DNA of 64,000 nucleotides, taken from Candidatus Korobacter versatilis (GTDB lineage Bacteria > Acidobacteriota > Terriglobia > Terriglobales > Acidobacteriaceae). Shown in pieces: positions 19,008-39,900 of the stretch. A program made the translations under genes and the position numbers. The DNA lies in assembly GCA_016185395.1 (NCBI GenBank), contig JACPNR010000004.1, forward strand, positions 372,001 through 436,000, read 5' to 3'. Positions within the stretch are counted from its first letter, which is position 1. Each line of letters begins with the position of its first letter. Below the pieces are notes generated by a model. That model worked only from the letters and a program-made list of their open reading frames with translations. It was not told where the DNA came from and ran no database searches.

Positions 19008-19675
19008 GCCAGGCCGCTCCCCTTCTTCTTGTCGAAGGCCTTCGCGGGGACGCCGGCCACGGCGGCGCCGTCGGGTACGTCGCGGATGACGGCGGCGCCG
19101 AGGGCGACGAGGGCGCTGCGTCCGATACGGGTTCCCTGCTTGATGGTGGCGCCGGCCCCAATGAACGCCATGTCGCTGACGCTGACCGAGCCGGAGAGCA
19201 CCGCGCCGGGCGCGATGTGGACGTGATCGCCGATGGAGCAATCGTGGTCCACGGAAGCGCGCGAGTTGATGATGACGTTCGCGCCGACCACGGTGCCCGG
19301 CCCGACGATCGCACCGGCGAGCACGACCGTCCCCTCGCCCAGCCTTGCGCTGGGCGAAACGACCGCGCTGGGATGCACTACGTTGACGAACGTGAACCCC
19401 ATTGCCTTGATGCGGGCAAAGAGCTCCGCGCGCTGCGAGTTGTTGGAGACGCTGCCGATGGCCACCACGGCGTGGCGGGTCCCCTCGCGGAGCAGGCGCG
19501 GAAGTTCCTCGTCTCCGCCGACGATGGGAACGCCGTCGAGCTGTTCACCGCGCAGCGCGGGCTGTGCATCCACAATGGCCTTGATGTCATACCCGCCCTG
19601 CAAGCGGACGGCATCGAGCAGAACGCGACCGTGGCCGCCTCCGCCGAACATCACGACTGGGATGGGAGCGCTCAT
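19004..19675 (-). CDS. neuD: NeuD-family sugar O/N-acetyltransferase
   Basis: A 223-residue acetyltransferase with a Rossmann-like N-terminus (VVMFGGGGHGRVLLDAV) that binds the sugar nucleotide, and a left-handed beta-helix of hexapeptide repeats (VVSPSARLGEGTVVLAGAIVGPGTVVGANVIINSRASVDHDCSIG) with His residues at the active site. In nonulosonate pathways the equivalent is LegH/PglD, acetylating the C4 amine of the 4-amino-sugar nucleotide. ATGA overlaps on both sides tie it to neuC and the candidate transferase. Confidence 0.9.
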   Translation of the reverse strand: MSAPIPVVMFGGGGHGRVLLDAVRLQGGYDIKAIVDAQPALRGEQLDGVPIVGGDEELPRLLREGTRHAVVAIGSVSNNSQRAELFARIKAMGFTFVNVVHPSAVVSPSARLGEGTVVLAGAIVGPGTVVGANVIINSRASVDHDCSIGDHVHIAPGAVLSGSVSVSDMAFIGAGATIKQGTRIGRSALVALGAAVIRDVPDGAAVAGVPAKAFDKKKGSGLA

Positions 19676-20850: not shown

Positions 20851-21902
20851 GCGAACATCTCCGGGGAGAGGAGGGTGCCGGCGGAGACGTCGCGCAGCAC
20901 GCGTTTGCCGAGGATGCGCTTGCGCTCGGCCGGCGGCATGCCGGTGCCGGGACGCAGGATGGCGATGTGTTGCGAGGCGATGGTGGCGCCGGCGGGGATG
21001 TCGCAGGCGGCGACGAGGCTGCGGCGGGCGACGCGGGCGACGTCCTCTTCCTCGGGCATGCGGCGCTTGCGGCCGTCGCCGAGCGCGGCCTCGACGGCGC
21101 GGATGCCGCGGACCATCTCGGCGAAGTCTTTCGGGTCGAGCGAGGCTTGGTGGTCGGGGCCGGGCAGGCGGTTATCGAGCGTGAGGTGCTTCTCGATGAC
21201 GCAGGCGCCGAGGGCGGCGGCGGCGAGCGCGACGGAAGCGCCGAGGGTGTGGTCGGAGTATCCGATGGGGACGCTGAACTCGTCGCGCAGCGTGTGCATG
21301 GCGCGAAGGTTGGCGCTGGCTGGGTCCGCCGGGTAATTACTCACGCAATGCAGCAGGACGAGCTCGCGGTTGCCGGCGGCGCGAAGCGTCTGCACGGCGA
21401 GGCGGACTTCCTCGAGATCGGACATGCCGGTGGAGAGGATGACGGGCTTGCCGGTGCGGGCGACGTGCTCGAGGAAGGGGAAGTTGGTGACCTCGCCGGA
21501 GGCGATCTTGAACGCAGGTACGCCGAGATTGGCGAGGTCGTAGATGCTTTCTTCGTCGGCAGGGGTGGAGAGGAAGAGGATGCCGAGCTTGCGGCAATGC
21601 TCGTTCAGTTCGGCGAAGGCGGCGATGGGGAGCGCGAGCTTCCTCACCATGTCGAGCTGCGACTCGGCTGCGCCCGTAGTGCGCTGCTGGTAGGCGGCTT
21701 TCGGTGCGGCGGGGGAAACGACTTTTTCCGCGCGAAAGGTTTGATACTTCACGGCGTCGGCGCCGGCGGACTTGGCGGCGTCTGCGAGCTGCCTGGCGGT
21801 GGCGAGGCTGCCGTTGTGGTTGACGCCGGCCTCAGCGATGACGAAGCAGGGCGCGCCTTCTGCGATGGTGCGTCCGGCGAGCTGGATGGTGGGGGCGGTC
21901 AC
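20847..21902 (-). CDS. neuB: Nonulosonic acid (sialic/legionaminic) synthase
   Basis: About 351 residues. It condenses phosphoenolpyruvate with a six-carbon amino sugar. The barrel domain shows FVIAEAGVNHNGSLATA, DAVKYQTFRAEKVVSP, FLSTPADEESIYDL, FKIASGEVTNFPFL, ILSTGMSDLEEV, LLHCVSNYPADP and IGYSDHTLG, plus EKHLTLD. The last ~60 residues are the SAF antifreeze-like domain (ACDIPAGATIASQHIAILRPGTG). The GTG start at 21902 overlaps the neuA stop by 4 bp and gives the normal family length; a longer frame exists but lies inside neuA. Confidence 0.95.
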   Translation of the reverse strand: MTAPTIQLAGRTIAEGAPCFVIAEAGVNHNGSLATARQLADAAKSAGADAVKYQTFRAEKVVSPAAPKAAYQQRTTGAAESQLDMVRKLALPIAAFAELNEHCRKLGILFLSTPADEESIYDLANLGVPAFKIASGEVTNFPFLEHVARTGKPVILSTGMSDLEEVRLAVQTLRAAGNRELVLLHCVSNYPADPASANLRAMHTLRDEFSVPIGYSDHTLGASVALAAAALGACVIEKHLTLDNRLPGPDHQASLDPKDFAEMVRGIRAVEAALGDGRKRRMPEEEDVARVARRSLVAACDIPAGATIASQHIAILRPGTGMPPAERKRILGKRVLRDVSAGTLLSPEMFA

Positions 21903-22687
21903 GGCGCCGGCGTCCTGGAGGATACGGAGACGGCGCGGGGCGCGGCGAGCGGTTTTTCGGTGAGCCAGGGGAGGGTGACGAGGCCGCTGGCGAGCGTCCA
22001 CTCGGCGAGGCGGAAGTCGTATTCGTCGTCGATGTCGATGGCGCGCTCCTTGGGCAGCAGCAGCGTGCGGTGGGGAGCGGTCTTCAAGTCGATGGCGGAG
22101 ACGCTCATCAGGTAGTCGCGACGCCAGAGGTAGAGCATGCCGTTGATGCGATAGATGGCGGGGAGGTCCTGGCGACGCGTGACTTGGGGCGCGTCCGGAA
22201 AGGCGCGGCGGAGGTAGCCGCGTCCGTCATCCTCGGCGCAGACGTAGCGGGGATGGAACGGCATCTCGGAGACGGCGATGGCGCCGACGGCTTGCGGATC
22301 AGCGGCGAGCGCGTGGACGGCGGCGCGTATGTCTTCAGGAAGCCGCAACGGGCCGGTTGGCTGGAGCAGCAGTACGGAGTCGACGCGCTTGCCTATGGCC
22401 TCTTCGTGCCAGCGGACGGCGTGCTGCAGGACGGGGAGCGTAGGTGTGTCGTCGCGGGCGAGTTCCTCGGGACGGAGGAACGGGACCTCGGCGCCGGCAG
22501 AGCGCGCGACCTCCGCGATCTCGTCGCTGTCGGTGGAGATAAGGGTGTCCGTGACCTCGGGCGAGTGGCGGGCCAGCTCGATGGCGTGCACGAGCAAAGG
22601 CACTCCGGCGAGCGAACGAATGTTCTTCCCCGGTAGTCCTTTGGACCCGCCGCGCGCAGGAATGACTGCCAGCAAACGCCCCGACAT
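21899..22687 (-). CDS. neuA: CMP-nonulosonic acid cytidylyltransferase
   Basis: About 262 residues. It activates the free sialic- or legionaminic-type acid as the CMP sugar. The nucleotide-binding motif LLAVIPARGGSKGLPGKNIRSLAG is at the N-terminus, followed by LISTDSDEIAEVARSAGAEVPFLRP, LLLQPTGPLR and a terminal AIDIDDEYDFRLAEW metal site. The ATG at 22687 places the motif right at the N-terminus as in the family; no Shine-Dalgarno is evident. It is the first gene of the operon, divergent from the O-antigen ligase gene. Confidence 0.93.
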   Translation of the reverse strand: MSGRLLAVIPARGGSKGLPGKNIRSLAGVPLLVHAIELARHSPEVTDTLISTDSDEIAEVARSAGAEVPFLRPEELARDDTPTLPVLQHAVRWHEEAIGKRVDSVLLLQPTGPLRLPEDIRAAVHALAADPQAVGAIAVSEMPFHPRYVCAEDDGRGYLRRAFPDAPQVTRRQDLPAIYRINGMLYLWRRDYLMSVSAIDLKTAPHRTLLLPKERAIDIDDEYDFRLAEWTLASGLVTLPWLTEKPLAAPRAVSVSSRTPAP

Positions 22688-22698
22688 GCTTCGTAATG

Positions 22699-22716
22699 TA
22701 GCGTGAAAGCACGCTA
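22699..22716. promoter_or_regulatory. Inverted repeat in the divergent neuA / O-antigen ligase promoter region
   Basis: TAGCGTG-AAAG-CACGCTA is a perfect 7-bp inverted repeat in the 69-bp gap between two divergent glycan genes. It may be an operator or an RNA hairpin in the neuA leader. Confidence 0.4.
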
Positions 22717-22756
22717 TGCCGCGAATAATTTGCGCCACGGTTTATGATGTGCGGCC

Positions 22757-24076
22757 ATGGAAAGCCCGGGCAGCCACGCTATCGCGGCGCCAAAATACCG
22801 CTGGGACGGCGCCGTGCTGTGGGGCGCGCTGGGGCTGCTGATGTTCGCGGTGCTTGCGTTCGGCGCGACGGAGGCGTGGTCCATCTTCGTGGTGCGCGCG
22901 GGCGCGGTGATGCTGCTGCTGGTTTGGGCGGTGGGACGGGCCGCGGGCGGCGGCGAGCAGCGCATCGCGGTCCCGCACATCTTCTACCCCGCCGCGCTGT
23001 TCATGGCGCTGGTCGCGGCGCAGTGGGCCGGGCTCTCGGCGTATCGCTACGCCACGATGGTCGAGGGGATGAACTACATCGCATACGGCATCCTGATGTT
23101 GCTGGCAGTGCAGTGCGTCCATGGAGAAGAAGACGCGCGGCGGGTGGTGCTGGCGTTCGCTATTTTCGGCGGAGTGCTGGCGTTCGTTTCCGTGATGCAA
23201 GGACTTTCCGGCTCGGTGAAGCTGCTGTTCCTGCGCACGCCGCGCGTGGCCGCGGTGGGATACGGCTACGGGCCGTATGTGAACCACAACCACTACGCCG
23301 GGATGATGGAGATGGTCGCGCCGTTCCTGATCGTGCTGGCGGCGAGTGACCGGCCGGCGGGAGCGCAGCGCGCGTTCACGGCGTTCGCGGCATTGCTGGC
23401 GGCAGGGTCGATCGTGCTCTCGCGGTCGCGCGGCGGCATACTGGCGTTCGCGCTCGAAGCCGTGTTCCTCGCGGCGTTCCTTCTTCCCGCGAGTGCGGGA
23501 CGGCGGACGCGACAGATCGGCGCGCTCGCCGCCGTGGTGCTGCTGGCGTTCCTGTTGTGGCTGGGCGGCGGCCCTATCCTGGAGCGCGTTGGGAGTATCG
23601 GCGACATCGCGGCCAACCAGATGCGCATCGACATCACGGGCGACAGCCTGCGGATGTTTGCGCAGCGTCCGGTGCTGGGCTGGGGCGTGGGGACGTTCCC
23701 GGTGGTGTATCCGACGCAGCGGAGTTTCTTCAGCGACTTCTTCGTGAACGAAGCGCACAACGACTACGCGCAACTGCTGGTCGAGGCCGGGCTGGCCGGC
23801 TTCGTGGCGATGCTTTGGTATCTCGTGGTGCTCTTCCGGCAGGGATTGCCGAAAATAACAGCGCCGCCGTTGCGGTCGTGGTCCGCGATCGTGACACTCG
23901 CCGCGCTGACCGGGGTTGCGGGATTGCTGGTACACAGTTTCTTTGACTTCAACCTGCACGTGCCCGCGAACGCGGCGCTGTTCTTCTTCCTGGGCGGGAT
24001 CGCGGCGGCGGAGATGCGCGGGGAGAACAAACAGCCGGCGAGGCGTCCGCGGGAAAGTTCCGCGCGGGTGAACTAG
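22757..24076 (+). CDS. O-antigen ligase / polymerase family membrane protein
   Basis: A 439-residue protein with about 11-12 hydrophobic segments. The periplasmic signature region appears twice over: GYGPYVNHNHYAGMMEM, and the Wzy_C-like stretch FAQRPVLGWGVGTFPVVYPTQRSF...NEAHNDYAQLLVEAGLAGF. Ligases and polymerases of the WaaL/Wzy group join lipid-linked glycans to an acceptor or to each other in the periplasm; sequence alone does not tell them apart. The ATG at 22757 has no clear ribosome site. It is divergent from neuA and converges on ruvC with a 4-bp overlap of stops. Confidence 0.88.
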   Translation: MESPGSHAIAAPKYRWDGAVLWGALGLLMFAVLAFGATEAWSIFVVRAGAVMLLLVWAVGRAAGGGEQRIAVPHIFYPAALFMALVAAQWAGLSAYRYATMVEGMNYIAYGILMLLAVQCVHGEEDARRVVLAFAIFGGVLAFVSVMQGLSGSVKLLFLRTPRVAAVGYGYGPYVNHNHYAGMMEMVAPFLIVLAASDRPAGAQRAFTAFAALLAAGSIVLSRSRGGILAFALEAVFLAAFLLPASAGRRTRQIGALAAVVLLAFLLWLGGGPILERVGSIGDIAANQMRIDITGDSLRMFAQRPVLGWGVGTFPVVYPTQRSFFSDFFVNEAHNDYAQLLVEAGLAGFVAMLWYLVVLFRQGLPKITAPPLRSWSAIVTLAALTGVAGLLVHSFFDFNLHVPANAALFFFLGGIAAAEMRGENKQPARRPRESSARVN

Positions 24077-24622: not shown

Positions 24623-25465
24623 TTACGAGAGCTTCTTGCGAAAGCCCACGGCGCACCAGAAAGGCGCGTGCTCGGAGAAATGGATGCCCTCGAGTCCGGC
24701 GCGCTCGAACATGGCGGCAATGCCGGCGCGGCTGAAGCGCTTTTCCAGAGAGGTCCCGAAGCGGTCGAGGGCGTCGGTGCGCATCTGGTAGTAGCTGCGC
24801 GTGCGGTAGGTGGCGAGCGGAAGGTTGGTGACGTTCTTCCCCATCTTCTCCAGCCCGGCGGCGAGCTTCGCGAGCGGCCAGTAGACGGTGGCGGCCGCGA
24901 GCTCGCTCACGCCGCGTTTTGCCCAGAAGGGCAAGCGGCAGACGGCGCGCCGGAACAGATCGGAGGTGCGCCAGAGCGCGCGGAACCAGAGCGGCCGGTT
25001 CTCGAAGTCGTAATAGAGGTAGACGAGGAACGGTGCGCCCGGCTTCAGTTTCCCGGCGCAGGCGGCGATGCCGGCGGCGGTGTCGGGCACATGGTGCAGC
25101 ACGCCGAGGGAATAGCCGAAGTCCATGGAGGCGTTGGGCAGCGGGATGGCGTCCACCGCAGCGTGATGGAAGACGACGTTGGGAAACTCGCGCAGGTCAC
25201 GGCGCGCCACTTCGAGTGCCGCGCTGGGATCGATGCAGTGCAACTTGCCGACGCGCGGTGCGACGAAGCGCGCCCAGCGGCCGGTGCCGCATCCGAGGTC
25301 GAAACCGGCTGCGCCTTTCGGCAGACTGTCCCACGGGAAAATGTTGAAGTAGGTGTTGAAGATCCGCTGGAGTTCTTCCGCAGATTCGGTGGATTGGTCG
25401 AAGGCCTGCCACTCGCGTCCGAAGGACGCGACGACCTGAGGATCGATATTGCGGGAGCTGGGCAC
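24623..25465 (-). CDS. Class I SAM-dependent methyltransferase
   Basis: About 280 residues. Motif I FDLGCGTGRWARFVAPRV, then HCIDPSAALEVARRDL, and FGYSLGVLHHVPDTAAGIAACAGKLKPGAPFLVYLYYDFENRP, typical of Methyltransf_11-type enzymes. The C-terminal part (YYQMRTDALDRFGTSLEKRFSRAGIAAMFERAGL) is seen in ubiquinone/O-methyltransferase-like proteins of sugar and natural-product loci. The GTG start at 25465 lies 20 bp after the preceding oxygenase; no ATG is available. It is last in a line of three tailoring-type genes downstream of the RiPP genes. Confidence 0.8.
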   Translation of the reverse strand: MPSSRNIDPQVVASFGREWQAFDQSTESAEELQRIFNTYFNIFPWDSLPKGAAGFDLGCGTGRWARFVAPRVGKLHCIDPSAALEVARRDLREFPNVVFHHAAVDAIPLPNASMDFGYSLGVLHHVPDTAAGIAACAGKLKPGAPFLVYLYYDFENRPLWFRALWRTSDLFRRAVCRLPFWAKRGVSELAAATVYWPLAKLAAGLEKMGKNVTNLPLATYRTRSYYQMRTDALDRFGTSLEKRFSRAGIAAMFERAGLEGIHFSEHAPFWCAVGFRKKLS

Positions 25466-25485
25466 GGGAGCGTGATCCGCGGGTT

Positions 25486-26154
25486 TCAATCCGGCTCGGC
25501 GGCGCTTGCCTGGTGGACCAGGCTGACAAAGTCGCTCTCGCGGTCGAGGAACCATCCGGCCAAAGCTGTCTTGCCGACGGCGCCGGTCACCGATGTGACC
25601 CGATGCTGCAGGTCGGGGGCGAGCGCGAAGAAGATGGCGTCGCCGGGCCCGGTGTTACGGATCGCCCAAAGCACCTGCTTCGAGCTGCGCGAGCGCATTT
25701 CTAGGGCTCCGCCTTCATACACTTCGCCGAGGTTCAGGGTGATGGAAAGCTGGCGGCCGTCTACCAGGTCGTCGTGCCAGGAATCGAAATGCTCGGGGCG
25801 CGGCAGCATGGTGTAGACGCGTCCCCAGAACCCGCGGATGGACTCGATACCGCTCAGTGCGCGCGCGAATGCGAGCGTCGAAGGCTGGTTCAGCATGAAG
25901 CGGAGCATCTGCACGGCGATGGAAGGCTGCAAGGTCAGGTCCGCGCCGACGCCCTTGCTCACGAAATCGCTAAACTTTCCGGAGGCAATGTCTGCGCGTA
26001 CCTTCGCCAACAACTCGGGCGGCAGAAACCCGCGGAAGACCACGTGGTGCTGGCGCTGGAACTGTTGTGCCAGCTCACGCATGGTCTCCGGCACGGGCAC
26101 GGTGACGCCGCTACGGTCAAGCCGGACCTGTGTCGCTGTAGAGGACGCGGTCAT
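25486..26154 (-). CDS. 2-oxoglutarate/Fe(II) oxygenase
   Basis: A 222-residue dioxygenase. The HxD iron site is in FDSWHDDLVDGRQLSITLNL and the distal His plus 2-oxoglutarate-binding Arg lie in ALAPDLQHRVTSVTGAVGKTALAGWF, as in prolyl-4-hydroxylase-like enzymes. It hydroxylates an unknown substrate. It overlaps the PhyH-type gene by 4 bp, so both oxygenases are made together, and it may tailor the RiPP or the surface glycan. Confidence 0.8.
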   Translation of the reverse strand: MTASSTATQVRLDRSGVTVPVPETMRELAQQFQRQHHVVFRGFLPPELLAKVRADIASGKFSDFVSKGVGADLTLQPSIAVQMLRFMLNQPSTLAFARALSGIESIRGFWGRVYTMLPRPEHFDSWHDDLVDGRQLSITLNLGEVYEGGALEMRSRSSKQVLWAIRNTGPGDAIFFALAPDLQHRVTSVTGAVGKTALAGWFLDRESDFVSLVHQASAAEPD

Positions 26155-27119
26155 CGCGGGCCATTACCTCCGAGAAGCGCTTGCGCGAGCGGCCCAAACG
26201 GCGCCAGCAGAGGTTCGAAGCGGGTGTAGCTCAGCAGGCTCCGGCTGATGAGTTTGAGTCGGTGGTCGAGGCTGGGTAATGGTCCGCTGAGCGCGACGAC
26301 CGTCTGGTCCGGCTTGAGCGCAGCCTGGGCACGCGACGAGAATTCCATGGCGGTGGAGATGCGGGGCGTGGCGCCGCCGTGGCAGGTGGAGCCCCAGTGG
26401 ATGACGTTGAAGTCCCAGCCCATCATCGCGCCGGCGCGGGCGGGCAGAGCGCGCGCTGCCTGAAGCAACTGTTTCGTTTCCGGCAAGGTGAAGCTCTTGA
26501 GGTCGAGGAACCCGCGAACGATGTTCTCGGGCACGAGGTCCTGCGGGACAACGTACATGCAACCGTTGTCGAGGGTGGCGTCGGAGAGCGCGAACCAGAC
26601 ACCGATGGCCTCGGGACGCTCGCGGTAGCCGCCCGAGTCCACGTGCGGCGGCCAGCCGTGTGAGCCGCGGGTGGGGCGCACGTAATGCGTCCATATGCCT
26701 TCGAGTTGGACGCAGTCTTCGCCCAACACTCGCCGGAGGAAGCGGAGCATGGGCGCAGTGCGAGTGGCGCGCCAAAATTCGTCGTAGACGAAGCTGAAGC
26801 CGGCCGGCCAGCCGGCGGCGACGAGGGCTTCGACCGCTTGGCGCATCGCTGCGGTGGCCTGGGGGGCGAGCGCTTCTTCAACATGGAAGTATCCGTGATT
26901 GGCCACGGCGCCGGCCGCCGCGGCGACGGTCTCATCGGTCATCGCCGGGCCGGCCATCTCGGCGCCCGCCGCGCCTTCCACCGAGAGTCCGGGCACGAGC
27001 TTGCGCCAGTAGTCCGCAGAAAGGGCACGTTCGCGCAAATCGGCGGGCAGGGCCACGATCGCGCGGCGGCGCATGAGCTCCGCCGCGACTCCTACCAACT
27101 CTTTTTCGTCGAGGGACAC
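26151..27119 (-). CDS. Phytanoyl-CoA dioxygenase (PhyH) family protein
   Basis: About 322 residues, with an Fe(II)/2-oxoglutarate oxygenase fold. The HxD motif lies in GWPPHVDSGGYRERPEAIGVWFALSDATLDNGCMYVVPQ, and the distal His in WGSTCHGGATPRISTAMEF with Arg for 2-oxoglutarate. PhyH proteins of bacteria act on small molecules, lipids and peptides. Start GTG at 27119, which follows TATAAT by only a few bases, implying a leaderless message. It lies 72 bp after the PRMT-like gene on the same strand. Confidence 0.82.
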   Translation of the reverse strand: MSLDEKELVGVAAELMRRRAIVALPADLRERALSADYWRKLVPGLSVEGAAGAEMAGPAMTDETVAAAAGAVANHGYFHVEEALAPQATAAMRQAVEALVAAGWPAGFSFVYDEFWRATRTAPMLRFLRRVLGEDCVQLEGIWTHYVRPTRGSHGWPPHVDSGGYRERPEAIGVWFALSDATLDNGCMYVVPQDLVPENIVRGFLDLKSFTLPETKQLLQAARALPARAGAMMGWDFNVIHWGSTCHGGATPRISTAMEFSSRAQAALKPDQTVVALSGPLPSLDHRLKLISRSLLSYTRFEPLLAPFGPLAQALLGGNGPR

Positions 27120-27125
27120 GCGTGG

Positions 27126-27190: not shown

Positions 27191-28333
27191 TCAGCGGCCG
27201 TACTTTTGCGACAGCTCGCTCACGCGCGAGAGGGCTTCTTGCCAGGTGTGGAAGCGCTGGGGAAAGGCGCTCGCGACACGGCGCGCGATCTCTTCGAGGA
27301 GGTTCTTTCCGTCCATCAACGCGAGCACCGTGCGATCGATCTCGCCATCCTGATCGAGCACGGGAGTGTGGGCGGAGGATTGCCGCTGCAGCCGCTCCGG
27401 CGACAGCGGCGCGCCGAACAAAGTGGACTGCCGAAAGGTGGCTTTCGAGCGGCCCCCGGGATCGGTCACCTGGGTGTTCCAGCGAAAGACGTAGCCATCG
27501 CCGACCAAGTCCGCGGCCAGGTGGATGGTGATGGAATCGCCCGTTTGGATGGGGACGGGCTCGGACCAAGGGAAAAACCCGCTGCCGTATATCAGTTCGG
27601 GCTCCCAAGGAGCACTGGTGAAGCGGACATCGTCGAACAGAACACTATCGAACCAGAGCGCGAAGCCATGGCCGATGCCATCGGCAGCGGCAGTCCAGGT
27701 GGCTTCGCGGCTGACGTTGGGGGATTCGATGGTGCGGTAGTCCAAGGTGACCCAGGGCTGCGGGCCGGCGAGGCACTGTTCCCTGCGCACACGTTCCTTG
27801 CGCCACATGTTGGTCGCGTGACGCAGGCCGGCGTCCAGGACGAGGCCGTAGTGGTTGTGTTCCCAACCCCGGCGGAGGCGTTGGGATATCTCGGGCGCGG
27901 TCACGGGCGCGAACCACAACGCATCTTCTTGTGGAAGGAGCACGCCGCCGGGTGCGAGGAACCTGCGACGAGCGTCCACGATGGAGGGGATGAGGTGTTG
28001 GTACAAAGGCAGGACGCCGCGCAGGTCGGAGACGATAACATCCACTTTTTCGGGTAGTTGCACGCGGGTGGAGAAGTCCTGGATGAACACGATGCGGTCG
28101 GCGTAGCCATTCGCGTGCGCCAACGCGCGGCCGAGCTCGATGGCGTCACCGTGCTCGATAGCGTAGACGCGCCGCGCGCCGGCGCGACAAGCGAGCAGAC
28201 TCAGGATCCCGGGGCCGCAGCCCAGGTCCAGCACCACGCTGTTTGGCCGGACCGCTTTGCGCAACGCGTTGTCATACGCGCCGGTGCGCCGTTCATCCGC
28301 CACCATGTTGGCATACGCAGCGAGGTTAAACAT
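27191..28333 (-). CDS. PRMT-like methyltransferase with C-terminal PqqD/RRE-like domain (RiPP tailoring)
   Basis: A 380-residue protein. Residues 1-300 look like a protein arginine methyltransferase: MVADERRTGAYDNALRKAV, VVLDLGCGPGILSLLACRAGARRVYAIE, FSTRVQLPEKVDVIVSDLRGVLP, and a beta-barrel with GYVFRWNTQVTDPGG. The final ~60 residues (EIDRTVLALMDGKNLLEEIARRVASAFPQRFHTWQEALSRVSELSQKYG) resemble PqqD, the winged-helix fold that binds RiPP leader peptides. If so, the enzyme would be guided to the precursor at 29345-29485, whose core has one Arg near its end. Starts 8 bp inside the kinase gene. Activity and the PqqD call are inference from pattern recognition. Confidence 0.7.
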   Translation of the reverse strand: MFNLAAYANMVADERRTGAYDNALRKAVRPNSVVLDLGCGPGILSLLACRAGARRVYAIEHGDAIELGRALAHANGYADRIVFIQDFSTRVQLPEKVDVIVSDLRGVLPLYQHLIPSIVDARRRFLAPGGVLLPQEDALWFAPVTAPEISQRLRRGWEHNHYGLVLDAGLRHATNMWRKERVRREQCLAGPQPWVTLDYRTIESPNVSREATWTAAADGIGHGFALWFDSVLFDDVRFTSAPWEPELIYGSGFFPWSEPVPIQTGDSITIHLAADLVGDGYVFRWNTQVTDPGGRSKATFRQSTLFGAPLSPERLQRQSSAHTPVLDQDGEIDRTVLALMDGKNLLEEIARRVASAFPQRFHTWQEALSRVSELSQKYGR

Positions 28334-29324
28334 CGGCCGCCACCCGGCCGTTCGGGGCGTTCACGAGAGCGAAGTCTTCGAGGATGGCCTCACACAACTG
28401 CCGGACATTCGCGGGATCGTCCGCGGGAGTGACATGGCGGAGCGTGACCTGATTTGCCAGGAGACCCACGCGCTCGAGCTCGCGCGCCCGCATGTCGCCA
28501 TCGAGCAAGTGATTCGAAGTGGTGTTGGCGACCAGCGCCATCAGGGCTGCACTACCACTGACCGGCACGATGTTCGTACCCATGCCCCTCCCCGCGCGTG
28601 CTCCCAGCAAATAGATGACGGCCAAGGGAAGCGTCAGGGTCTCGAAGCGGTATGAGTTGCCGCGCAGATCGAGGTAGCGCTTGTCCCAGGTCGGAGTAAG
28701 CCGTGGGAGGGCCTCGGGCGTACCGAAGAGACAGGTCACGGAGTCATCCCACAAACGCACCAGCGGATTGCCGGGGCGCACCATGAAGCCCCCCGCTTGC
28801 TCGACCACCACGGCGGTATCGTCGGTGAGGATGGCGTTACCAAGCTGTGCGAATGCTGCGGCGGTGGTGGACTTGCCTGCGCCCTGTGGCCCGACCAGCG
28901 CGAGGGCGCAGTCTCCGACGCGGACCGCACTGGCATGCAAGCTGAGATGACCGCGGAGCCTGAGGACATACGCCAGCACAGGACCGAGCAAGTAAGTAGC
29001 GGTGTCTTCGAGTGTACCGGCCGGCGATGCGGCCCAAACGTTCGCGCCTGCGCGGTCGACCACAAAACTAGTGCCGTCCGCGTACAGCATGCGCAGGTAG
29101 GCGCCGCCCGCGAGACGACTCGCGGTGAGCAATGGCCGGCGATTGGCGGCAAGCTGCGGGCTGACATAGAACTGCTCACACGGGCATGACGGAATATCTA
29201 TGGGAGGCGGGGCGGCGAGGAAAACACGAAGATCTGGAGGTGTGAGGGTATTAGAGAGCGGCTCCAGGGCCGGCAGGCTGGAGTCCGCGGCGATCAACAG
29301 GCCGAATAGAGAATAGAACCACAC
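28326..29324 (-). CDS. HprK-like P-loop kinase (lasso precursor kinase type)
   Basis: A 332-residue protein with the HprK-like C-terminal kinase fold. LSLHASAVRVGDCALALVGPQGAGKSTTAAAF gives the Walker A loop at about 145-152, with ILTDDTAVVVEQ as the acidic site. Stand-alone HprK-like kinases (PadeK, ThcoK) in lasso-peptide clusters phosphorylate the C-terminal Ser of the precursor. The adjacent precursor here does end in Ser. GTG start at 29324, preceded by GGGGA; overlaps the methyltransferase start by 8 bp. A housekeeping HPr kinase is unlikely given the context and the divergent N-terminal half. Confidence 0.8.
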   Translation of the reverse strand: MWFYSLFGLLIAADSSLPALEPLSNTLTPPDLRVFLAAPPPIDIPSCPCEQFYVSPQLAANRRPLLTASRLAGGAYLRMLYADGTSFVVDRAGANVWAASPAGTLEDTATYLLGPVLAYVLRLRGHLSLHASAVRVGDCALALVGPQGAGKSTTAAAFAQLGNAILTDDTAVVVEQAGGFMVRPGNPLVRLWDDSVTCLFGTPEALPRLTPTWDKRYLDLRGNSYRFETLTLPLAVIYLLGARAGRGMGTNIVPVSGSAALMALVANTTSNHLLDGDMRARELERVGLLANQVTLRHVTPADDPANVRQLCEAILEDFALVNAPNGRVAADV

Positions 29325-29344
29325 TGCCTGAGTTCCCCACGAGA

Positions 29345-29485
29345 CTAACTCCTGGCGTTCTTCCCGTCATTCGACTTGGTAACGGTCGTGGTCTGGGTGA
29401 TGGCGCGGATGTCGCCATAGACGACGAGCTTCGGAGCACGGTACAGCTTGGGCGTCGCCATCTGGCTTTCTGCTTGATTCTTCAT
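29345..29485 (-). CDS. Lasso-type RiPP precursor peptide (46 residues)
   Basis: A small gene with a strong GGGGAG site 8 bases before its ATG. The leader contains YRAPKLVVYGDIRAIT, an exact match to the lasso leader pattern Y-x2-P-x-L-x3-G-x5-T (Tyr15, Pro18, Gly24, Thr30). Thr30 would be the conserved -2 residue, so the predicted core is residues 32-46, TTTVTKSNDGKNARS. Asp at core position 9 could close a macrolactam with the residue-1 amine; the tail is GKNARS with C-terminal Ser. Residue 1 is Thr, less usual than Gly. It sits between the cyclase and kinase genes. The cleavage point and ring are predictions, and the product is unverified. Confidence 0.82.
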   Translation of the reverse strand: MKNQAESQMATPKLYRAPKLVVYGDIRAITQTTTVTKSNDGKNARS

Positions 29486-29489
29486 GCGC

Positions 29490-31352
29490 TCATCTCCCCA
29501 CAAGTTGCTCTTTTATATCGAATGGGCCCTGGGAATGCAACCATAGATTCAGTACGACGGCGCGTAGATTCACGCGGTAGGCCTCGCGCCACGCCCCTGC
29601 CGGGGTGGGCAGCAGCTCCCAGTCGGAGCGGACGTAATGGGCCAGCGCGGGATGCCGCGGCACCGAGCGAACCGGATCCAACCTTCCCGCCTCCAGATAT
29701 TTGCGCAGCGGGTCGGCTGCCATCACGGCCTTGGGGCGGCGGCGGACGGGTTCCGGCAGTACGCCGCGCATCGCTTCCCGGATGAGCAGCTTGCGCAGGG
29801 ACCACGGCACCGGCGGCACGCCCATCATGTAATCGATCATGCGCAGGTCGAAATAGGGATAGCGCACCGCGATGGGCTCGTGCGTCGTGCCCGGGTCGTA
29901 GCCTTCGAAAAGCTGTGGCCAGGAGTATCCGGTCAAGGAGCTTTGGAGCCAGGCGCGAGGATGGTCGCCCGGCGGAGTCTGCGCGGAGCGTTGTTCCCAC
30001 AGCCGATGGAGGTCCAGCCGCGCGGCGAGTCCCGGTTCGAGCCACTCGGGGTACGGGACCCAATCGGTCCGCCGGTCGACCTTATTCTTCAGTCTTGCCC
30101 AAAGACCGTTGAGGAACGAGCGCGGCTCTCCGAGGGAGGCGCGCAGGGCCTCCGCGATGAACGGCCGATACTGCTTTTTCCGCAACGTGGCGAGCAGGGA
30201 GCGGCGGATGGAGGCGACAAAGAGCGGATCGCCGCCGTTGCCATCGAGCAGCACGCGGCTGTGCTTCGCCATGACGGCGAACTCGTCGGCAAAGAGCGCT
30301 GCGCCGGCGCTCTTGATCTCCGGCTCGGGCGCGCGCCACGCCGCTTGCTGCCAGCGCTCGAAGAGTGCGTAGTCGTCGCCGGTGAAATAGTGGATGGGGA
30401 TGCCGAGTTGTTTTGCCACCAGGCCGGAGTAGTGGCGCTCTTCGTCGGGGAAGAGATGGTCAAAGACTTCGGTGTAGGCGCGCAGAGAGAAGGGCGCTCC
30501 GCCGGACTTCAGAAGGTCAAGCGCTGTGGCGGCGATGGATGAGGAATCCAGCCCGCCGGTCATGGATACGCTGACCGTACGCGTGCGCAACCGGTCGCTC
30601 ACTGCTTTCTGCAACAGGTCACGGAAGCGGTCCACGTAGTCCTGCTTGCGCTGGTAGCGGACGGTATCGCCGGGCTGGAGCGTCCAGTAGCGCTCGACGC
30701 GAAGCCCGGCTGCATCGCAGAGAAGGAAGTGTGCCGGCGGAAGACGGCGGATGTCCGCGTAGGAGGTGGCGCCCATCTCGTGGTTCACGTCGAAGAGCAG
30801 GAAGCCGGCGATGGCGCGGTCATCGAGAGCGCTGGAGACTTCGGGATGCAGCCGCAGGCAGCTCAGGGTGTTGCTGAACAGGAAGTGCTTCCCTTTGTCA
30901 GCGTAGTAAAACGGCTTGACGCCGAGATGGTCGCGCGCGCCGAAGAGGAGTTTGCGCGGGGCGTCCCAGATGACAAAAGAAAAATCGCCAAGCAGGTGCT
31001 CGACGCAGCGCTCGCCCCACTGCTGATAACTGGCGAGGATGAGGCGGGCGTCGTCGAGAGCGAGGGCGATGGGAGTTGTGCGTCTCGCGTTCAGCTTGGC
31101 GAGGAGTTCGTCGCGGGCGTCGATGCGGGCGTCGGCGACGATCCAGACCTGGCCGTCGAGCGCGAGCGGCTGCTGCTGCTCAGGGAAATCTTCGGCGGTG
31201 CGCAAGAGAGCGTGGCCGAGACCTATGGGGCCGTCGGCCCAGGTGGCGCACCCGTCTGGGCCGCGAAAGACGAGGAAATCGGTCATGCGGCCGAGCAGCC
31301 GCGCGTCTACCGGCGCGCCGTCCCGGTGATAGATTCCCGCATAGCCGCTCAT
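29490..31352 (-). CDS. Asparagine-synthetase-like lasso cyclase (C protein)
   Basis: A 620-residue AsnB homologue. The N-terminal glutaminase domain begins MSGYAGIY, with Ser instead of the catalytic Cys at position 2, so ammonia release from glutamine is unlikely. The synthetase domain retains the ATP-pyrophosphatase loop SMTGGLDSSSIA and the later EAMRGVLPEPVRRRPKA segment. Such enzymes adenylate an Asp/Glu side chain in the core and form the lasso macrolactam. The precursor gene starts 5 bp after its stop. It is the first gene on its strand, divergent from the nucleotidyltransferase gene, so a promoter lies in 31353-31405. Confidence 0.9.
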   Translation of the reverse strand: MSGYAGIYHRDGAPVDARLLGRMTDFLVFRGPDGCATWADGPIGLGHALLRTAEDFPEQQQPLALDGQVWIVADARIDARDELLAKLNARRTTPIALALDDARLILASYQQWGERCVEHLLGDFSFVIWDAPRKLLFGARDHLGVKPFYYADKGKHFLFSNTLSCLRLHPEVSSALDDRAIAGFLLFDVNHEMGATSYADIRRLPPAHFLLCDAAGLRVERYWTLQPGDTVRYQRKQDYVDRFRDLLQKAVSDRLRTRTVSVSMTGGLDSSSIAATALDLLKSGGAPFSLRAYTEVFDHLFPDEERHYSGLVAKQLGIPIHYFTGDDYALFERWQQAAWRAPEPEIKSAGAALFADEFAVMAKHSRVLLDGNGGDPLFVASIRRSLLATLRKKQYRPFIAEALRASLGEPRSFLNGLWARLKNKVDRRTDWVPYPEWLEPGLAARLDLHRLWEQRSAQTPPGDHPRAWLQSSLTGYSWPQLFEGYDPGTTHEPIAVRYPYFDLRMIDYMMGVPPVPWSLRKLLIREAMRGVLPEPVRRRPKAVMAADPLRKYLEAGRLDPVRSVPRHPALAHYVRSDWELLPTPAGAWREAYRVNLRAVVLNLWLHSQGPFDIKEQLVGR

Positions 31353-31405
31353 TCGTCCGTCACTTTAATGCATCGCGGAGCCGTTCCCCAAGCGCGGTTT
31401 TAGTT

Positions 31406-32695
31406 GTGAGGGACTGCTGGATTCACTATCCTGAGCGCAGAATTCTTGCTGACTTCCGCAGCCACTTGCCCGCTGAACTCAAACCCGCCACGCCGCCTTC
31501 GCCGGAGTTTGCGTTGCTGCTCGCCTGCGCGCGTGCAGCCGTGAATCCATCTGTGGGTGCGGCGCGGGTGGGCGAGCTGGCGCGATCCAAGGACCTGGAT
31601 TGGGAGAAGCTGCTGATCGTAGGCAGGAAGCACGCGCTGCGTCCGCTGCTGCACGAGCAGTTAAAGGCAGCCGCTACCGGCCTGGTACCACCGGCGATCC
31701 GCACGCGCCTGCACGACGTGGTGAACGATAACGCCCACTACAGCTTGCGGCTTACCCATGAACTGCTGCGGGTGGAGGCGGCGCTCCGCGAACGAGGAGT
31801 GCACGTCATCCCTTACAAGGGCCCCGTCCTAGCCGCGACTGCATACCGAAACTTTGCCACGCGGGTATTTCTCGATCTCGACATCCTCGTGCCGCCGGCG
31901 GAGGTGCCCGCAGCCAGGGCAGCGCTGCTGGCCCTGGGATACCGCTCCACGCCGGCGCTCACCCCGCGGCAACAAGCCGCGCTGCTGCGCTCGAATTGCG
32001 AGTCGTCCTTCGAACACCAGGAGCTCGAGACGTGGATCGAGTTGCATTGGCGTATCGCGCCAGTGCAGTTCGCGGTGGAGTTCGACGTGGAGCAAGGCTG
32101 GGGGCGCACGCGACGCCTGGCGCTCGGCGGCGGCGAAGTTCGCACGCTCGCGTCCGAAGACCTGTTACTGGTGCTCGCCGTGCACGCGGCGAAGCATCTG
32201 TGGCAACGCCTGTGCTGGCTCACGGACGTGGCGGCGGTCCTCGGTAGCGAGCCGAGCATCGACTGGACACGGCTCATGGCGGAGGCGGAACGGGTCTCCG
32301 CGCTGCGTATTGTTCTGATCACACTGCACCTGTGCGCCGAATCGCTGGGCGTCGCGCTGCCGGCAGAGGTGAACGCGGCGATCAGCGCCGACGCGGAAGT
32401 GAACGGCGTGGCGGACGCAGTGATGGCCGACATGTATGCCGAAGCCGGAGAGACCTCCTCCCTGCGCACGCATCGCCTGCTGCTACGCACGCGGTCGAGA
32501 TGGCGCGATAAGGGACGCTACGCGTTGCGCGTGCTGTTCACGCCCGGGGTGAGCGAGTGGGCCCTGCTGTCGCTGCCGGCGCCGCTCGCACCGCTTTATC
32601 CGGTGATACGCCTGGGGCGTGTTGCCGGGAAACTCCTGCGCGGTGCTGTCCGGACTCCGGCGCCACTCGACCCCTCGGCGCGAGCGCGCTCTTGA
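31406..32695 (+). CDS. Nucleotidyltransferase family protein (PF14907-type, RiPP-associated)
   Basis: About 429 residues. The core motif VIPYKGPVLAATAYRNFATRVFLDLDILVPPAEVPAARAALLALGYRS and the helical region VHAAKHLWQRLCWLTDVAAVL identify the NTP_transf_5-like group, which repeatedly co-occurs with lasso HprK-like kinases. In the pseudomycoidin system a nucleotidyltransferase is reported to act on the phosphorylated C-terminal residue. The GTG start at 31406 is tentative: no good ribosome site, and the frame is open well upstream. It is divergent from the cyclase gene and is followed by an ABC exporter with TTGA overlap. Confidence 0.78.
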   Translation: MRDCWIHYPERRILADFRSHLPAELKPATPPSPEFALLLACARAAVNPSVGAARVGELARSKDLDWEKLLIVGRKHALRPLLHEQLKAAATGLVPPAIRTRLHDVVNDNAHYSLRLTHELLRVEAALRERGVHVIPYKGPVLAATAYRNFATRVFLDLDILVPPAEVPAARAALLALGYRSTPALTPRQQAALLRSNCESSFEHQELETWIELHWRIAPVQFAVEFDVEQGWGRTRRLALGGGEVRTLASEDLLLVLAVHAAKHLWQRLCWLTDVAAVLGSEPSIDWTRLMAEAERVSALRIVLITLHLCAESLGVALPAEVNAAISADAEVNGVADAVMADMYAEAGETSSLRTHRLLLRTRSRWRDKGRYALRVLFTPGVSEWALLSLPAPLAPLYPVIRLGRVAGKLLRGAVRTPAPLDPSARARS

Positions 32696-33522
32696 GTCGC
32701 GCGAGCGCTTCGCCGAACGTGGACGCGGTGGTCCTCGAGTCCGTCAGCAAAGTATTTCGACACCGCCCGGCGCTGCTGAACCTCGCGGGACGCGAGCGCA
32801 GCGGAGAGACGCGTGCGCTCGATGGCGTTTCGCTCAGCGCACGCAGCGGCGAGATCCTCGTGCTGCTCGGTCCCAACGGCGGCGGCAAGACGACGCTGCT
32901 CAAGCTGGTGGGGACGATCCTGCTGCCGGACAGTGGCAGCGTGCGGGTGAATGGACTGGAGACGCGGACCCACGGCGACGCGGCGCGGCGGACCATCGGA
33001 TTCGCCGTCGCGAATGAGCGGTCGTTCTTCCCTCGCTTGACCGCGTTCGAGAACCTTGACCTCTTTGGCGTGCTCGAAGACCTGGCGCGCAAGGAACGCC
33101 ACGAGCGGGTCGACTGGACGCTCGCGACCACCGGCCTGGCTGCCGCGCGCAATACGCTGGTGATGAAGTTCTCGAGTGGGATGTACCAGCGCCTGGGAGT
33201 GGCGCGCGCGCTGCTCAAGCGTCCGCGCGTGCTGCTGCTCGACGAACCGACGCGCAGCCTCGACGTTCGCGGCGCCGAACACCTGTGGCAGGTCTTCCGG
33301 CAGATCGCCGCCGAAGGCAGCACCGTCCTGCTGGCGACCCACGATTTCGATGAGGCCGCGGCGCTGGGGAGCGAGGTCGTGATCCTGCAACGCGGCGTGA
33401 TACGCGCACGCGAGCGGCTCGCGGGCCACAGCAGCATCGATGCGCTGCGAGCGTTCTACCTGCGCGAGACGCAGTCCGAAGAGGGCGAAGCCGACGCAAC
33501 GCGGAACGAGGTGCGCCGGTGA
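32692..33522 (+). CDS. ABC-2 type exporter, ATP-binding subunit
   Basis: About 276 residues. Walker A LLGPNGGGKTTLLK at about 60-68, an unusual signature FSSGMYQRLGVARAL in place of LSGGQ, Walker B VLLLDEPTRSLD, and LATHDFDEA. The TTG at 32692 overlaps the preceding stop (TTGA) and is in frame; a GTG at 32719 is an alternative. It pairs with the permease at 33519 by a GTGA overlap. Its position next to the RiPP genes suggests export or self-protection, although polysaccharide or lipid export cannot be excluded. Confidence 0.88.
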   Translation: MSRASASPNVDAVVLESVSKVFRHRPALLNLAGRERSGETRALDGVSLSARSGEILVLLGPNGGGKTTLLKLVGTILLPDSGSVRVNGLETRTHGDAARRTIGFAVANERSFFPRLTAFENLDLFGVLEDLARKERHERVDWTLATTGLAAARNTLVMKFSSGMYQRLGVARALLKRPRVLLLDEPTRSLDVRGAEHLWQVFRQIAAEGSTVLLATHDFDEAAALGSEVVILQRGVIRARERLAGHSSIDALRAFYLRETQSEEGEADATRNEVRR

Positions 33523-34325
33523 AGGCCTCGCTGCTCGAGAAGCTTTATCTGATCGTGCTGCGCGACTTGCGCACCGGCATTCGCTATCGCGGCGGGTTCT
33601 GGATGGAGGTGGCCGGGACGTTTGCCGAGCTGAGCACGTTCTTTTTCCTAGCCGCTGCGATCGGCGGCAGCTACCGCCCGCAGGGGATGGACTACTTCAG
33701 CTTTCTCGTGATCGGGACGAGCGTGCTGGGATTCCTCGCCGCCGGCGTGTACCTGTTCGTGAACACGGTGCGGCAGGCGCAGATGACGGGCACGATGGAA
33801 GTGCTGATGACGACGGCGACGCCGGGATGGATCATCATCCTGCTGACGGCGATCTCGTCGTTCACTGCGCGCCTGCTGCCGACGGTCCTGTACATCGCGG
33901 CGGGATTGTTCCTGTTCGGTGCCCCGGTCGGAGCGGTCCGCCTGGCGCCGGCGGCGGTGGTCTTCGTGCTTTCCATCCTCGTGGCACTAGCGATCGGCAT
34001 GCTGGCGGGCGCGATGCAGGTGGCGTTGCAGCGCGGCGGAGGCGTCACGACGCTGATTGCGACGGTGGCCTCGTTCTTCTGCGGCGCGATGTTCCCTATC
34101 AACGCGCTGCCGCGGACGCTGCAGCTCGTCTCGCGCGCCATCCCGTTCACGTATTCCATCCATGGCTTGCGCGCGACGCTGGTTGCCGGCAGCTCGTTGG
34201 GCGATGTTTCCACGGACATCGTGGCGCTCGCGGCGTTCGCCGCCGTGCTGCTGCCGATAGGGACCGGCGTGTTCGCGCTGGCCCTGCGCCGCGCGCGGCA
34301 ACAGGGCACGCTGTCGTTTTACTGA
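33519..34325 (+). CDS. ABC-2 type transporter permease
   Basis: A 268-residue membrane protein with six hydrophobic segments in the ABC-2 pattern. RTGIRYRGGFWMEVAGTFAELSTFFFLAAAIGGSYRPQGMDYFSFLVIG leads, and the middle has MEVLMTTATPGWIIILL. FCGAMFPINALPRTLQLVSRAIPFTYSIHGLRATL is the usual C-terminal signature. Starts with GTG inside the stop of the ATPase gene. Together they form one exporter. The convergent glycosyltransferase gene ends 1 bp beyond its stop. Confidence 0.88.
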   Translation: MKASLLEKLYLIVLRDLRTGIRYRGGFWMEVAGTFAELSTFFFLAAAIGGSYRPQGMDYFSFLVIGTSVLGFLAAGVYLFVNTVRQAQMTGTMEVLMTTATPGWIIILLTAISSFTARLLPTVLYIAAGLFLFGAPVGAVRLAPAAVVFVLSILVALAIGMLAGAMQVALQRGGGVTTLIATVASFFCGAMFPINALPRTLQLVSRAIPFTYSIHGLRATLVAGSSLGDVSTDIVALAAFAAVLLPIGTGVFALALRRARQQGTLSFY

Positions 34326-36986: not shown

Positions 36987-39900
36987 TCACTGCTGCGGCT
37001 TCGGTTTTTCGACGGGCGCCGGCATGAGGTAGGGCAGCAGTTCCTGCTTGGTGATGACGATGCGCGCCGTCTCCACGTCCACCGGCTCCACGGGAAGCTG
37101 TACCCTGCCGCTCGGAGCCGGCGTCCCTTGCGGCAAAGGCTGCAGCGGGACGATGGAGACCGTCAGCGGTCCGGCGGGCAGGTCGCGGAAGACGAAGTAG
37201 CCGTTCGCATCGGTTTCGACGATCTGGCCAGCCACCGTCAACTTCACGCCCGCGAGCGGCTGCAGCTCTTCCGGAACGGCGGCCCCGGCGGACGTGCTGC
37301 CGTTGCCGTTTCCGTTGCCATTCCCATTGCCGTTACCGTTTCCATTGCCATTCCCGTTGCCGCCGTTCTCGGGGTGGCCCTTGAGGCGTTTGGGGATGCC
37401 GCGCAGCTTCATCCCGGCGCCATTGCCATTGCCGTTCCCGTTTCCATTCCCGTTGCCGTCGTTGCGGCAGGGGCCGTTGCCATTTCCGTTTCCGTTACCA
37501 CCGTTGCCGTTGCCGCCGTTCCCATTGCCGGAGTTGCGGCGGACGTTGCCGGCGTCGGTCAGGGCCGGGCGTCCATTGCCCGCGCTGCGGTTCCCGTTGC
37601 CATTGCCATTGCCGTTGCCGTCGACACGCCAGCACGGGACCGCCTGCCGATTGGGTCCGAGGTGCGGGCCCTTGAAGTAGACGCGTCCGCCGATGGTGCG
37701 CAGAGCGCGCACCGGCATGTCGACCACCGCGCTCGCGGTGGGCGCGACGTGCAGGTGCTGCGGAGCGTTGTCGGCGAGGTAGCGCTCGGGCAGCGTCGTG
37801 GTATCGAGTTGCAACTCGTAGTCGCCCGGCGGGAGATCATAGACCTCGAAGTTGCCGGCGCCATCCGTGGGGACGGTGCGCTCTTTGTCGCCACTCTTGA
37901 GTTTCACGCTGACGCCGCGGATGCCAGGGGCATCCGGCATCTTCTTTCCCGACAACATGTAATCGTTGTAGACGTTGCCGAGCAGACGCGCGAAGTTCAC
38001 CACACCGAACTCGACGTGCGTCGTCTTGTCGCGCTCGAGGTCCAGCGCGACGTCAGTGGCGGAAGTAACGCGGATAGGATCTTTGAACTGGTCGAGCGGC
38101 ATCTCCACGCGATAGGAGCCGCGTTCGAGGTGGTCGAACTCGTAGCGTCCGGAGGCGTCGGTCATGACGGAGCGGCCGTCGCTCAGACGCACGGCGATGC
38201 CGGCGATGCCGGCCTCGCCATCGTTGTATGCGCCGTTGATGTTCATGTCGCGGAACACACGGCCGGCGATACGGTAGTTGTGGCCCGTCACACGCAGCCA
38301 GTTGGGCGCGCCGACCAGTTGTTTGGTCACGCCGAAGTTGAGCATAGTGGTGCGCTGCATGTTGCTGCTCGTGCCGCTCCATGCCAGTCCGTTGGTAAGC
38401 GACGACTGGAGCTGCAGCGTGGGCGCAAGCTGGTAGACCAGGCTGTAGCCGAAGAAATGCGACCGCGAACCGCCACCGAGGTTCTGCTCGTCGCGCAGAT
38501 AGGTGTAGGTGGGGCTGATGGTCAGCTTGCGGGCGATGGCAAATTGTCCCTGGAGGTAGAACTGCATCGTGGCCGGGTCGAGGGCGTTGAGTAGGGAGCG
38601 CAGCTCCGGCGGCATGTTGGGTGAATTCACGAAGGCGAGGGGGTTCTGCTCGAACAAGTCGCGCAGTGCCGGCGAGAGCAACTGCAGTTCGTGCTGCAGG
38701 CGCGTCGCCAGCGCGGGATTCAAGTTGGTCTTCAAGAACCCGAAGGTCAACACGCCCGGTTTGGTGCGAACTTGCAGCACGTCGTGGATGCTGAACGTCC
38801 CTTGCGAGGCGATCTGGAAGGGATCGTTGACGGAGCCGAAGCCGACCTCGGCGGAGTTGCTGAAGCGGCCGAGCGCCGCCCTCCAGCCGACGTCCATGCG
38901 GTTGCCGGAAGAGGAGGCCACGTTCGAGAGGCCGCCCTCGCTGCTGGTCCGCAGGTAGCGCAGGTTCAGCGACTGGCGCTGCGTGAGGGCGTAGGAAACG
39001 CTGGGCGAGAAGGTGGTGGCGCGGGCAGGCGCGACGTTGCCAATGCCTTCCGCCTGGACGTGGGTGAAATAGGACGAGACGCGCAGACGCTCGGAGACGG
39101 CGTAGCCCATGCCGCCCTGCAACGACGTGCTGGCGGCGTAGGAGAACTGCAGCTGTGCCGTCGGGAAGCCAGGACTTCCCTTGAGCGCGGAAACGTATCC
39201 GGTCAGCTTTTCGCCAGTGAAGACGGCGGCGCCTTGGGCGAGGAACCCGCGCGTGCTCGCGCCGAGGATGCCCTGGAACGCCCAGCGCTTGCTGAGGTTG
39301 TAATCCACTCCCATGGTCTGGAAGAAGCTGTTGCGACGCTCGTTGCCGCCGGCGAGCAACTGCGTTGGGACGCTGGCGTAGCCGGTGGTGGCGAAGAGCG
39401 TCATCTTCTCGCTCTGGCGCCGCGTGAAGTTGAAGCCGAACAACTCGCGCGCGCCGTAAAGCGAGAGGAAGTAGGTCTGCTGGCTCACGCCGCCGAAGAA
39501 CTGATAGTTGTTGTCACCGCGCTCGAAGCTCGCTTCCCCGCCGCGCAGCAGAAAGGTCCTGGCGCCGGTGAAGGAGGCGACGTGTCCCTGCCCGGCTCCG
39601 GTGAAGTCGAGGAGGAAATCACCGGCGGTGAAGCTCTTGGTGGGGGTGCTGTACTGCACGTATCCGGTATTCAGGTTGAAGGGGTGAGTGGACGAGCGCG
39701 CGGGGAGCAGGTCGTAGATCTGGCCTCGCACACGGAGGTGGCGCTCATCGCCGAGCGGCTGATCCCACGACATGGTGTGGACGAGGTAGTACGCCGGATC
39801 GCCGCCCGAGGTAAGCGTGGTCTGCATGGCGGTGCCGACAAAGCCGCTGCCCAAGGTGTCTGCGGCGCCCGTCAGGGACGGCGCGATGAGCTGCTTTGGC

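Follow-up and report, generated by a model that had tools for sequence, protein, structure and literature searches.

The locus analyzed here raises the question of whether an AsnB-like protein, a 46-aa open reading frame, an HprK-like kinase and a putative methyltransferase form a lasso peptide system when B1 and B2 are both absent from the locus and from the window. The window is the whole analyzed stretch of 64,000 nucleotides (C13:372001-436000), which belongs to a genome of 2.48 Mb in 15 contigs with a completeness of 90%. A placement in Acidobacteriota is supported through another genome of the same family group, a Terriglobia MAG. All genes named in the initial annotation, together with the 46-aa precursor gene, were found in the places it had given; the absence of B1 and B2 had been passed over there. 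The features of the locus and its surroundings, in window positions, are as follows:

22757..24076, plus strand: O-antigen-ligase-like membrane protein, named by eye, with counterparts in relatives
24623-25555: second methyltransferase, flanking gene
25486-26154: 2OG oxygenase, flanking gene
26151-about 27120: PhyH, flanking gene
27191..28333, minus strand: PRMT-fold SAM methyltransferase (MT), with the fold in residues ~1-310 and a C-terminal helical domain in residues 318-380
28326..29324, minus strand: HprK-like kinase (K); TIGR04352, HPr kinase profile match, Walker A
29345..29485, minus strand: putative lasso precursor (A), 46 aa, ATG at 29485 and stop at 29345; leader models
29490..31352, minus strand: putative lasso cyclase (C), AsnB-like, with Ser2 where glutaminases have Cys
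31397..32695, plus strand: PF14907 nucleotidyltransferase-like protein (N), PF14907 at 193 bits, start approximate
32722..33522, plus strand: ABC transporter ATPase, PF00005 at 103 bits, start approximate
33519..34325, plus strand: ABC-2 permease, candidate exporter, PF01061 at 57 bits

The C, A, K and MT genes all lie on the minus strand and nearly touch one another, and N and the ABC pair are oppositely oriented. The ABC pair was also found in the lasso loci of relatives L022 and L023 (58% and 48% identity), and the ligase-like protein shares 46%, 37% and 38% identity with the corresponding proteins of L021, L023 and L024. Since no homologues of PhyH, the 2OG oxygenase and the second methyltransferase were detected in the loci of relatives, except for one 2OG match, these three genes were left out of the cluster.

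As for the precursor, it consists of the leader MKNQAESQMATPKLYRAPKLVVYGDIRAITQ (residues 1–31) and the predicted core TTTVTKSNDGKNARS (residues 32–46). The leader carries the motif YxxPxLxxxGxxxxxTx with Thr at -2, and the core contains Thr1, Thr3, Asp9 and, at its C-terminus, Arg14 and Ser15, Arg14 being the single arginine. The gene at 29345-29485, the leader motif and Asp9 are thus all as initially described. Two checks suggested at that time were run. In the comparison with lasso-leader models, the precursor exceeded the cut-off of NF033521 (19.7 bits, cut-off 19) and was slightly below that of NF033528 (31.0 bits, cut-off 33); in a genome-wide search, it was the sole leader over the lasso-leader cut-off. 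As for conservation of the frame and its coding appearance, the precursor and the corresponding ORF of relative L023 share 44% identity across 41 residues, the precursor ATG is located 4 nt past the cyclase stop, and a good Shine-Dalgarno-like sequence, GGGGAG, lies 8 nt ahead of the ATG; together with the model matches, this makes the 46-aa frame look coding.

Precursors of relatives were picked by the leader motif alone, beside the genes of these relatives, and each distinct sequence entered the count a single time; inspection by eye led to the removal of three matches that were junk or truncated. An Asp or Glu at core positions 8-10 was present in all 63 precursors associated with both MT and kinase, compared with 12.1 in shuffled cores (maximum 28), and in 31 of 32 precursors associated with kinase only, compared with 5.5 in shuffled cores, the relatedness of the sequences somewhat inflating these counts. 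The cyclase matches PF00733 (99.7 bits) and PF13537 (83.5 bits). Among NCBIfam models, the lasso cyclase NF033535 fits it best (371 bits, below the curated cut-off of 525), and it also matches the XrtA/EPS amidotransferase model with 165 bits. With the L021 cyclase, the protein shares 43% identity. Ser2 at the position of the glutaminase Cys, noted in the initial annotation, is present and typical of the family, where most relatives begin with M/L/V-S-G. The reading of the protein as a cyclase with a vestigial glutaminase domain is supported. Taken together, the leader model match, the cyclase model and the ring acid of the relatives bear out the earlier proposal, so that the assignment of the locus to lasso-type RiPP systems is well supported. 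The proposed nine-residue ring between Thr1 and Asp9 stands as a prediction, with Asp9 falling in the 7-9 range of core positions that ring acids of lasso peptides occupy. The computed monoisotopic mass of the lasso (linear core minus water) is 1560.786 Da; phosphorylation would give 1640.752, a phosphate with a hexose 1802.805, and each methyl group would add 14.016.

The kinase scored 31.9 bits with TIGR04352, below the cut-off, and the Pfam match of the single protein was also below its cut-off. A profile of five relatives matched HPr kinases of the PDB at 2e-7; the Walker A motif is GPQGAGKST, in which G-x-G-KS is invariant. This places the kinase, by profile similarity, in the HPr-kinase fold family. 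A [K/R][S/T] pair within three residues of the C-terminus was found in 30 of the 63 cores with MT and kinase (6.0 in shuffles) and in 19 of the 32 kinase-only cores (3.9 in shuffles). Being enriched both with and without MT, the tail motif tracks the kinase. A role of this motif as the MT substrate was rejected, as kinase clusters that lack MT carry it too. In paeninodin and pseudomycoidin, the C-terminal Ser is the target of HprK-like kinases (PMC8498205, PMC9266682), and by this analogy and by the kinase-linked motif Ser15 is the predicted phosphosite. The kinase-modified core of the initial annotation is retained as a prediction. By analogy with BsfK of the Bradymonas cluster, which phosphorylates Ser3 and accepts Thr there (PMC10368454), the site could instead be Thr3.

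In a search by MT alone, 80 loci were collected, and neighbors were counted in the 45 that had 4 kb or more of sequence to either side. The kinase was found in 39 of them, the cyclase in 37, both in 36, B1 in 32, N in 29 and B2 in 24, and five had none of these. The taxa named for the 80 loci include Acidobacteria, Cyanobacteria (Phormidium), KSB1, Gemmatimonadota, Xanthomonadaceae, Deltaproteobacteria and Verrucomicrobia. Because the kinase and the cyclase accompany MT in 36/45 loci across many phyla, the enzyme set, earlier called unusual, is better described as a conserved and recurrent cassette of cyclase, HprK-like kinase and MT, often with the PF14907 protein and B1/B2.

According to the profile comparison, the MT family matches PRMT2 at 4e-53. 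The AlphaFold2 model of MT (pLDDT 94.5) can be superposed on PRMTs across some 320 columns, and Foldseek gave an E value of 2.8e-29 to PRMT2; in the model, MT has the full PRMT fold and SAM site. The last 60 residues (318-380) showed an hhalign probability of 81% with B1/PqqD, part of B1 being aligned, compared with 0.3% for a control segment. No Pfam PqqD match was found for this C-terminal domain, which could be a leader-binding device and is treated here as a lead.

The initial annotation had proposed PRMT-type tailoring. The fold part of this proposal was supported, and the arginine chemistry was not. It is unlikely, in our estimate, that MT is a true arginine methyltransferase that acts, within the same lasso system and despite its altered loops, on Arg14 or on an Arg or Lys of the leader. 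The full PRMT fold agrees with such an activity, as do the position of the sole core Arg next to the predicted phosphosite and the location of Chloroflexi members of the MT family just downstream of small arginine-run proteins in seven loci. Against it, the double-Glu loop of the window protein has Asp103 and Gln112 instead of Glu, and across the family Glu occupies these columns in just 4/50 and 6/50 sequences, with Asp in the first column in 43/50. The THW segment reads L-I-Y-G in the window protein and is Tyr-Gly in most relatives. In addition, 37 of the 63 MT-associated cores contain no Arg, and five contain neither Lys nor Arg. With the double-Glu and THW motifs lost and most associated cores free of Arg, arginine methylation was dropped as a claim, and "PRMT-type" is used here for the fold and not for the chemistry.

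The only B1-B2 pair of the genome, with adjacent genes, was found at C13:31007-31619, 370 kb from the locus, with Pfam matches to PF13471 (75.6 bits) and PF05402 (68.4 bits). B1 is the PqqD-like leader-binding protein and B2 the leader peptidase; both are intact, B2 keeps its Cys and His, and the pair is located beside exopolysaccharide genes. This distant locus (L003) contains Wzc, TPR, B1 and B2, and the window contains the ligase-like gene, N, MT, K, A and C. A single stretch holds the genes for Wzc, TPR, ligase-like protein, B1, B2, N, MT and K in relatives L021, L023 and L024, and in two of these three it also holds C; within this undivided lasso/exopolysaccharide block, the ligase-like gene is flanked by those for TPR and B1 or adjoins the lasso genes. 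In gene content, L003 and the window are complementary halves, and since both loci form one block in relatives, a rearrangement has probably split the lasso cluster. It seems to have required more than one breakpoint, as the ligase-like gene is also gone from between TPR and B1; because this gene moved as well, a single assembly misjoin would not explain the split. We infer from synteny and from the sole copy that the distant B1-B2 pair serves precursor A. With a genome completeness of 90%, a second pair could be missing from the assembly.

Orphan B1-B2 genes elsewhere in the genome, together with A, C and MT lacking a local pair, were found in four other genomes: G582 (lasso locus L098 and orphan pair L188, roughly 0.7 Mb apart on a single-contig chromosome), G586 (L039 and L189), G583 (L044 and L190) and G584 (L045 and L191). 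As the orphan loci of G583 and G586 look alike, these perhaps represent three or four independent cases. G583 also has a second B2 adjoining an AsnB-like fragment. The presence of B1-B2 within the cluster is a trait of clustering and not of the pathway.

These data bear on two further explanations, both of which deny a lasso product. The locus might be a decaying remnant in which, once B1-B2 had been separated, leader removal was no longer available to A, C, K and MT. The distance of 370 kb and the cyclase score below the curated cut-off are what such decay could leave behind, but all genes have open frames and close spacing, neither B1 nor B2 is damaged, and the same separation recurs in the four other genomes; we regard this explanation as improbable. 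It is far less credible still that the AsnB-like protein and its neighbors modify exopolysaccharide, the small ORF being incidental. In three relatives, the block does adjoin genes for Wzc, TPR and an O-antigen-ligase-like protein, and the XrtA/EPS amidotransferase model is matched by the cyclase, but the lasso cyclase model scores more than twice as high, and small ORFs with a lasso leader and a ring acid recur beside such genes across phyla.

We consider it likely that a tailored lasso peptide is encoded here and that its cluster is physically split. In the proposed pathway, B1 would act from the distant locus and bind the YxxPxL leader, and the kinase would phosphorylate Ser15 of the tail within the conserved [K/R]-[S/T] motif. 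The PF14907 protein may add a sugar to the phosphate, by analogy with PsmN, which is required for the hexose on the phosphate in pseudomycoidin (PMC8498205, PMC9266682). MT would methylate the precursor or the product, with its PqqD-like C-terminal domain perhaps serving as a guide. B2 would cleave the leader after Gln(-1), the cyclase would close the ring around the tail by linking the amino group of Thr1 to the side chain of Asp9, and the ABC pair would export the product.

Among known systems, the locus resembles the pseudomycoidin cluster (psm: A, C, K, N, B1, B2) in its lasso precursor, cyclase, HprK-type kinase, nucleotidyltransferase-like protein and C-terminal core Ser, and differs in having the PRMT-fold MT, none being reported in psm, and in the location of B1-B2 elsewhere in the genome. 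Paeninodin and the proteobacterial phosphorylated lasso peptides share the HprK homologue and the C-terminal Ser but belong to other phyla, and the locus has MT and N in addition. The bsf cluster of Bradymonas sediminis (A, B1, B2, C, D, K, N) has a YxxPxL leader, K and N genes and separate B1 and B2 as well, whereas it has Ile at -2, Ser3 phosphorylation, one contiguous cluster of 7.2 kb and no MT among its seven genes. SAM-dependent methyltransferases in lasso clusters are represented by StspM/LasF, which is a C-terminal carboxyl O-methyltransferase, and by the PIMT-like enzymes of lihuanodin and cellulonodin-2, which are isoaspartyl-type; MT has a PRMT fold with an added helical domain. It shares the whole-domain fold and SAM-binding motifs with eukaryotic PRMT2, PRMT6 and Hmt1 (Foldseek E about 1e-29 to 1e-27) but lacks their double-Glu and THW motifs and has an extra C-terminal domain. 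In two review passages (PMC9266682, PMC13352647), the lasso methyltransferases are StspM/LasF and the PIMT-like enzymes, and a PRMT fold is not described there. A literature search found no description of PRMT-like methyltransferases in lasso clusters or of unclustered lasso B genes; most subscription papers were outside its scope, so this is weak evidence. Lasso clusters of Acidobacteria have already been reported from sequence (PMC9064862, PMC10368454).

A broader proposal, which we put forward tentatively and at somewhat less than even chances, is that the MT family is a widespread third class of lasso methyltransferases, in which a PRMT fold was re-purposed from arginine and equipped with its own PqqD-like leader-binding domain, acting together with the kinase and N and, recurrently, with B1-B2 in trans from a distant locus. 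Part of the MT-associated family may make natural ten-residue rings; a Gemmatimonadota precursor (L080), for one, has Asp10. For RiPP chemists, the interest lies in a conserved tailoring methyltransferase whose fold was not expected in lasso clusters, where it is present in many phyla beside defined precursors that can be assayed. Cluster-based mining misses lasso systems, or deems them incomplete, where B1-B2 are located elsewhere. From the [K/R]-[S/T] tail motif that the cores have in common, the site of kinase action can be predicted.

In the relatives' loci compared with the lasso locus of the window (L-numbers), the first usable ring acid was found at core position 10, counted from the end of the leader, in the precursors of L029, L034, L039, L040, L044, L045, L056, L080 (two precursors), L081, L098, L158, and L166. 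This suggests natural ten-residue rings or, alternatively, a shifted cut site. According to a review (PMC8498205), lasso rings comprise 7–9 residues, and a ten-residue ring is given as an in vitro analogue.

In L025 (14053-14430, minus strand) and L026 (near 10582, plus strand), the lasso-type leader and ring segment are followed by a long C-terminal extension; both extensions share the block MCWVAEAVYG..., and they are reminiscent of a CFI-box domain. The Xanthomonadaceae-type cores (L047, L061, L071, L075, and L079) are long, carry Glu8 and a second Cys, and end with KHC; a disulfide is possible in these cores.

The following genes were also noted in the window.

19004-22738, minus strand: putative sialic/legionaminic-type sugar synthesis genes, assigned by eye, adjoining the lasso locus
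24623-27120, minus strand: PhyH-type oxygenase, 2OG-Fe(II) oxygenase, and second methyltransferase, on the same strand as the lasso genes and after them
36987-40208, minus strand: usher-like protein of 1073 aa, likeness assigned by eye

The oxygenase and second methyltransferase set is not conserved in the relatives' lasso loci. The C-terminal part of the usher-like protein contains a long Gly-Asn repeat (GNGNGN...).

Members of the family of the PRMT-fold methyltransferase (MT) were also observed without lasso genes in Anaerolineales and other Chloroflexi (L050, L054, L055, L058, L060, L066, and L072). Directly upstream of MT, these loci encode a small protein with a run of 8–10 arginines and a SHOCT-like tail, which is probably a membrane protein.

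In L086, L094, L097, L104, and L107 (Planctomycetota, Desantisbacteria, Omnitrophota, and Desulfatibia), genes for a B1-like (leader-binding) protein, HprK-like kinase, MT, and PF14907 nucleotidyltransferase-like protein are grouped, with no cyclase or B2 leader peptidase detectable at these loci. Such groups possibly represent another use of the tailoring module.
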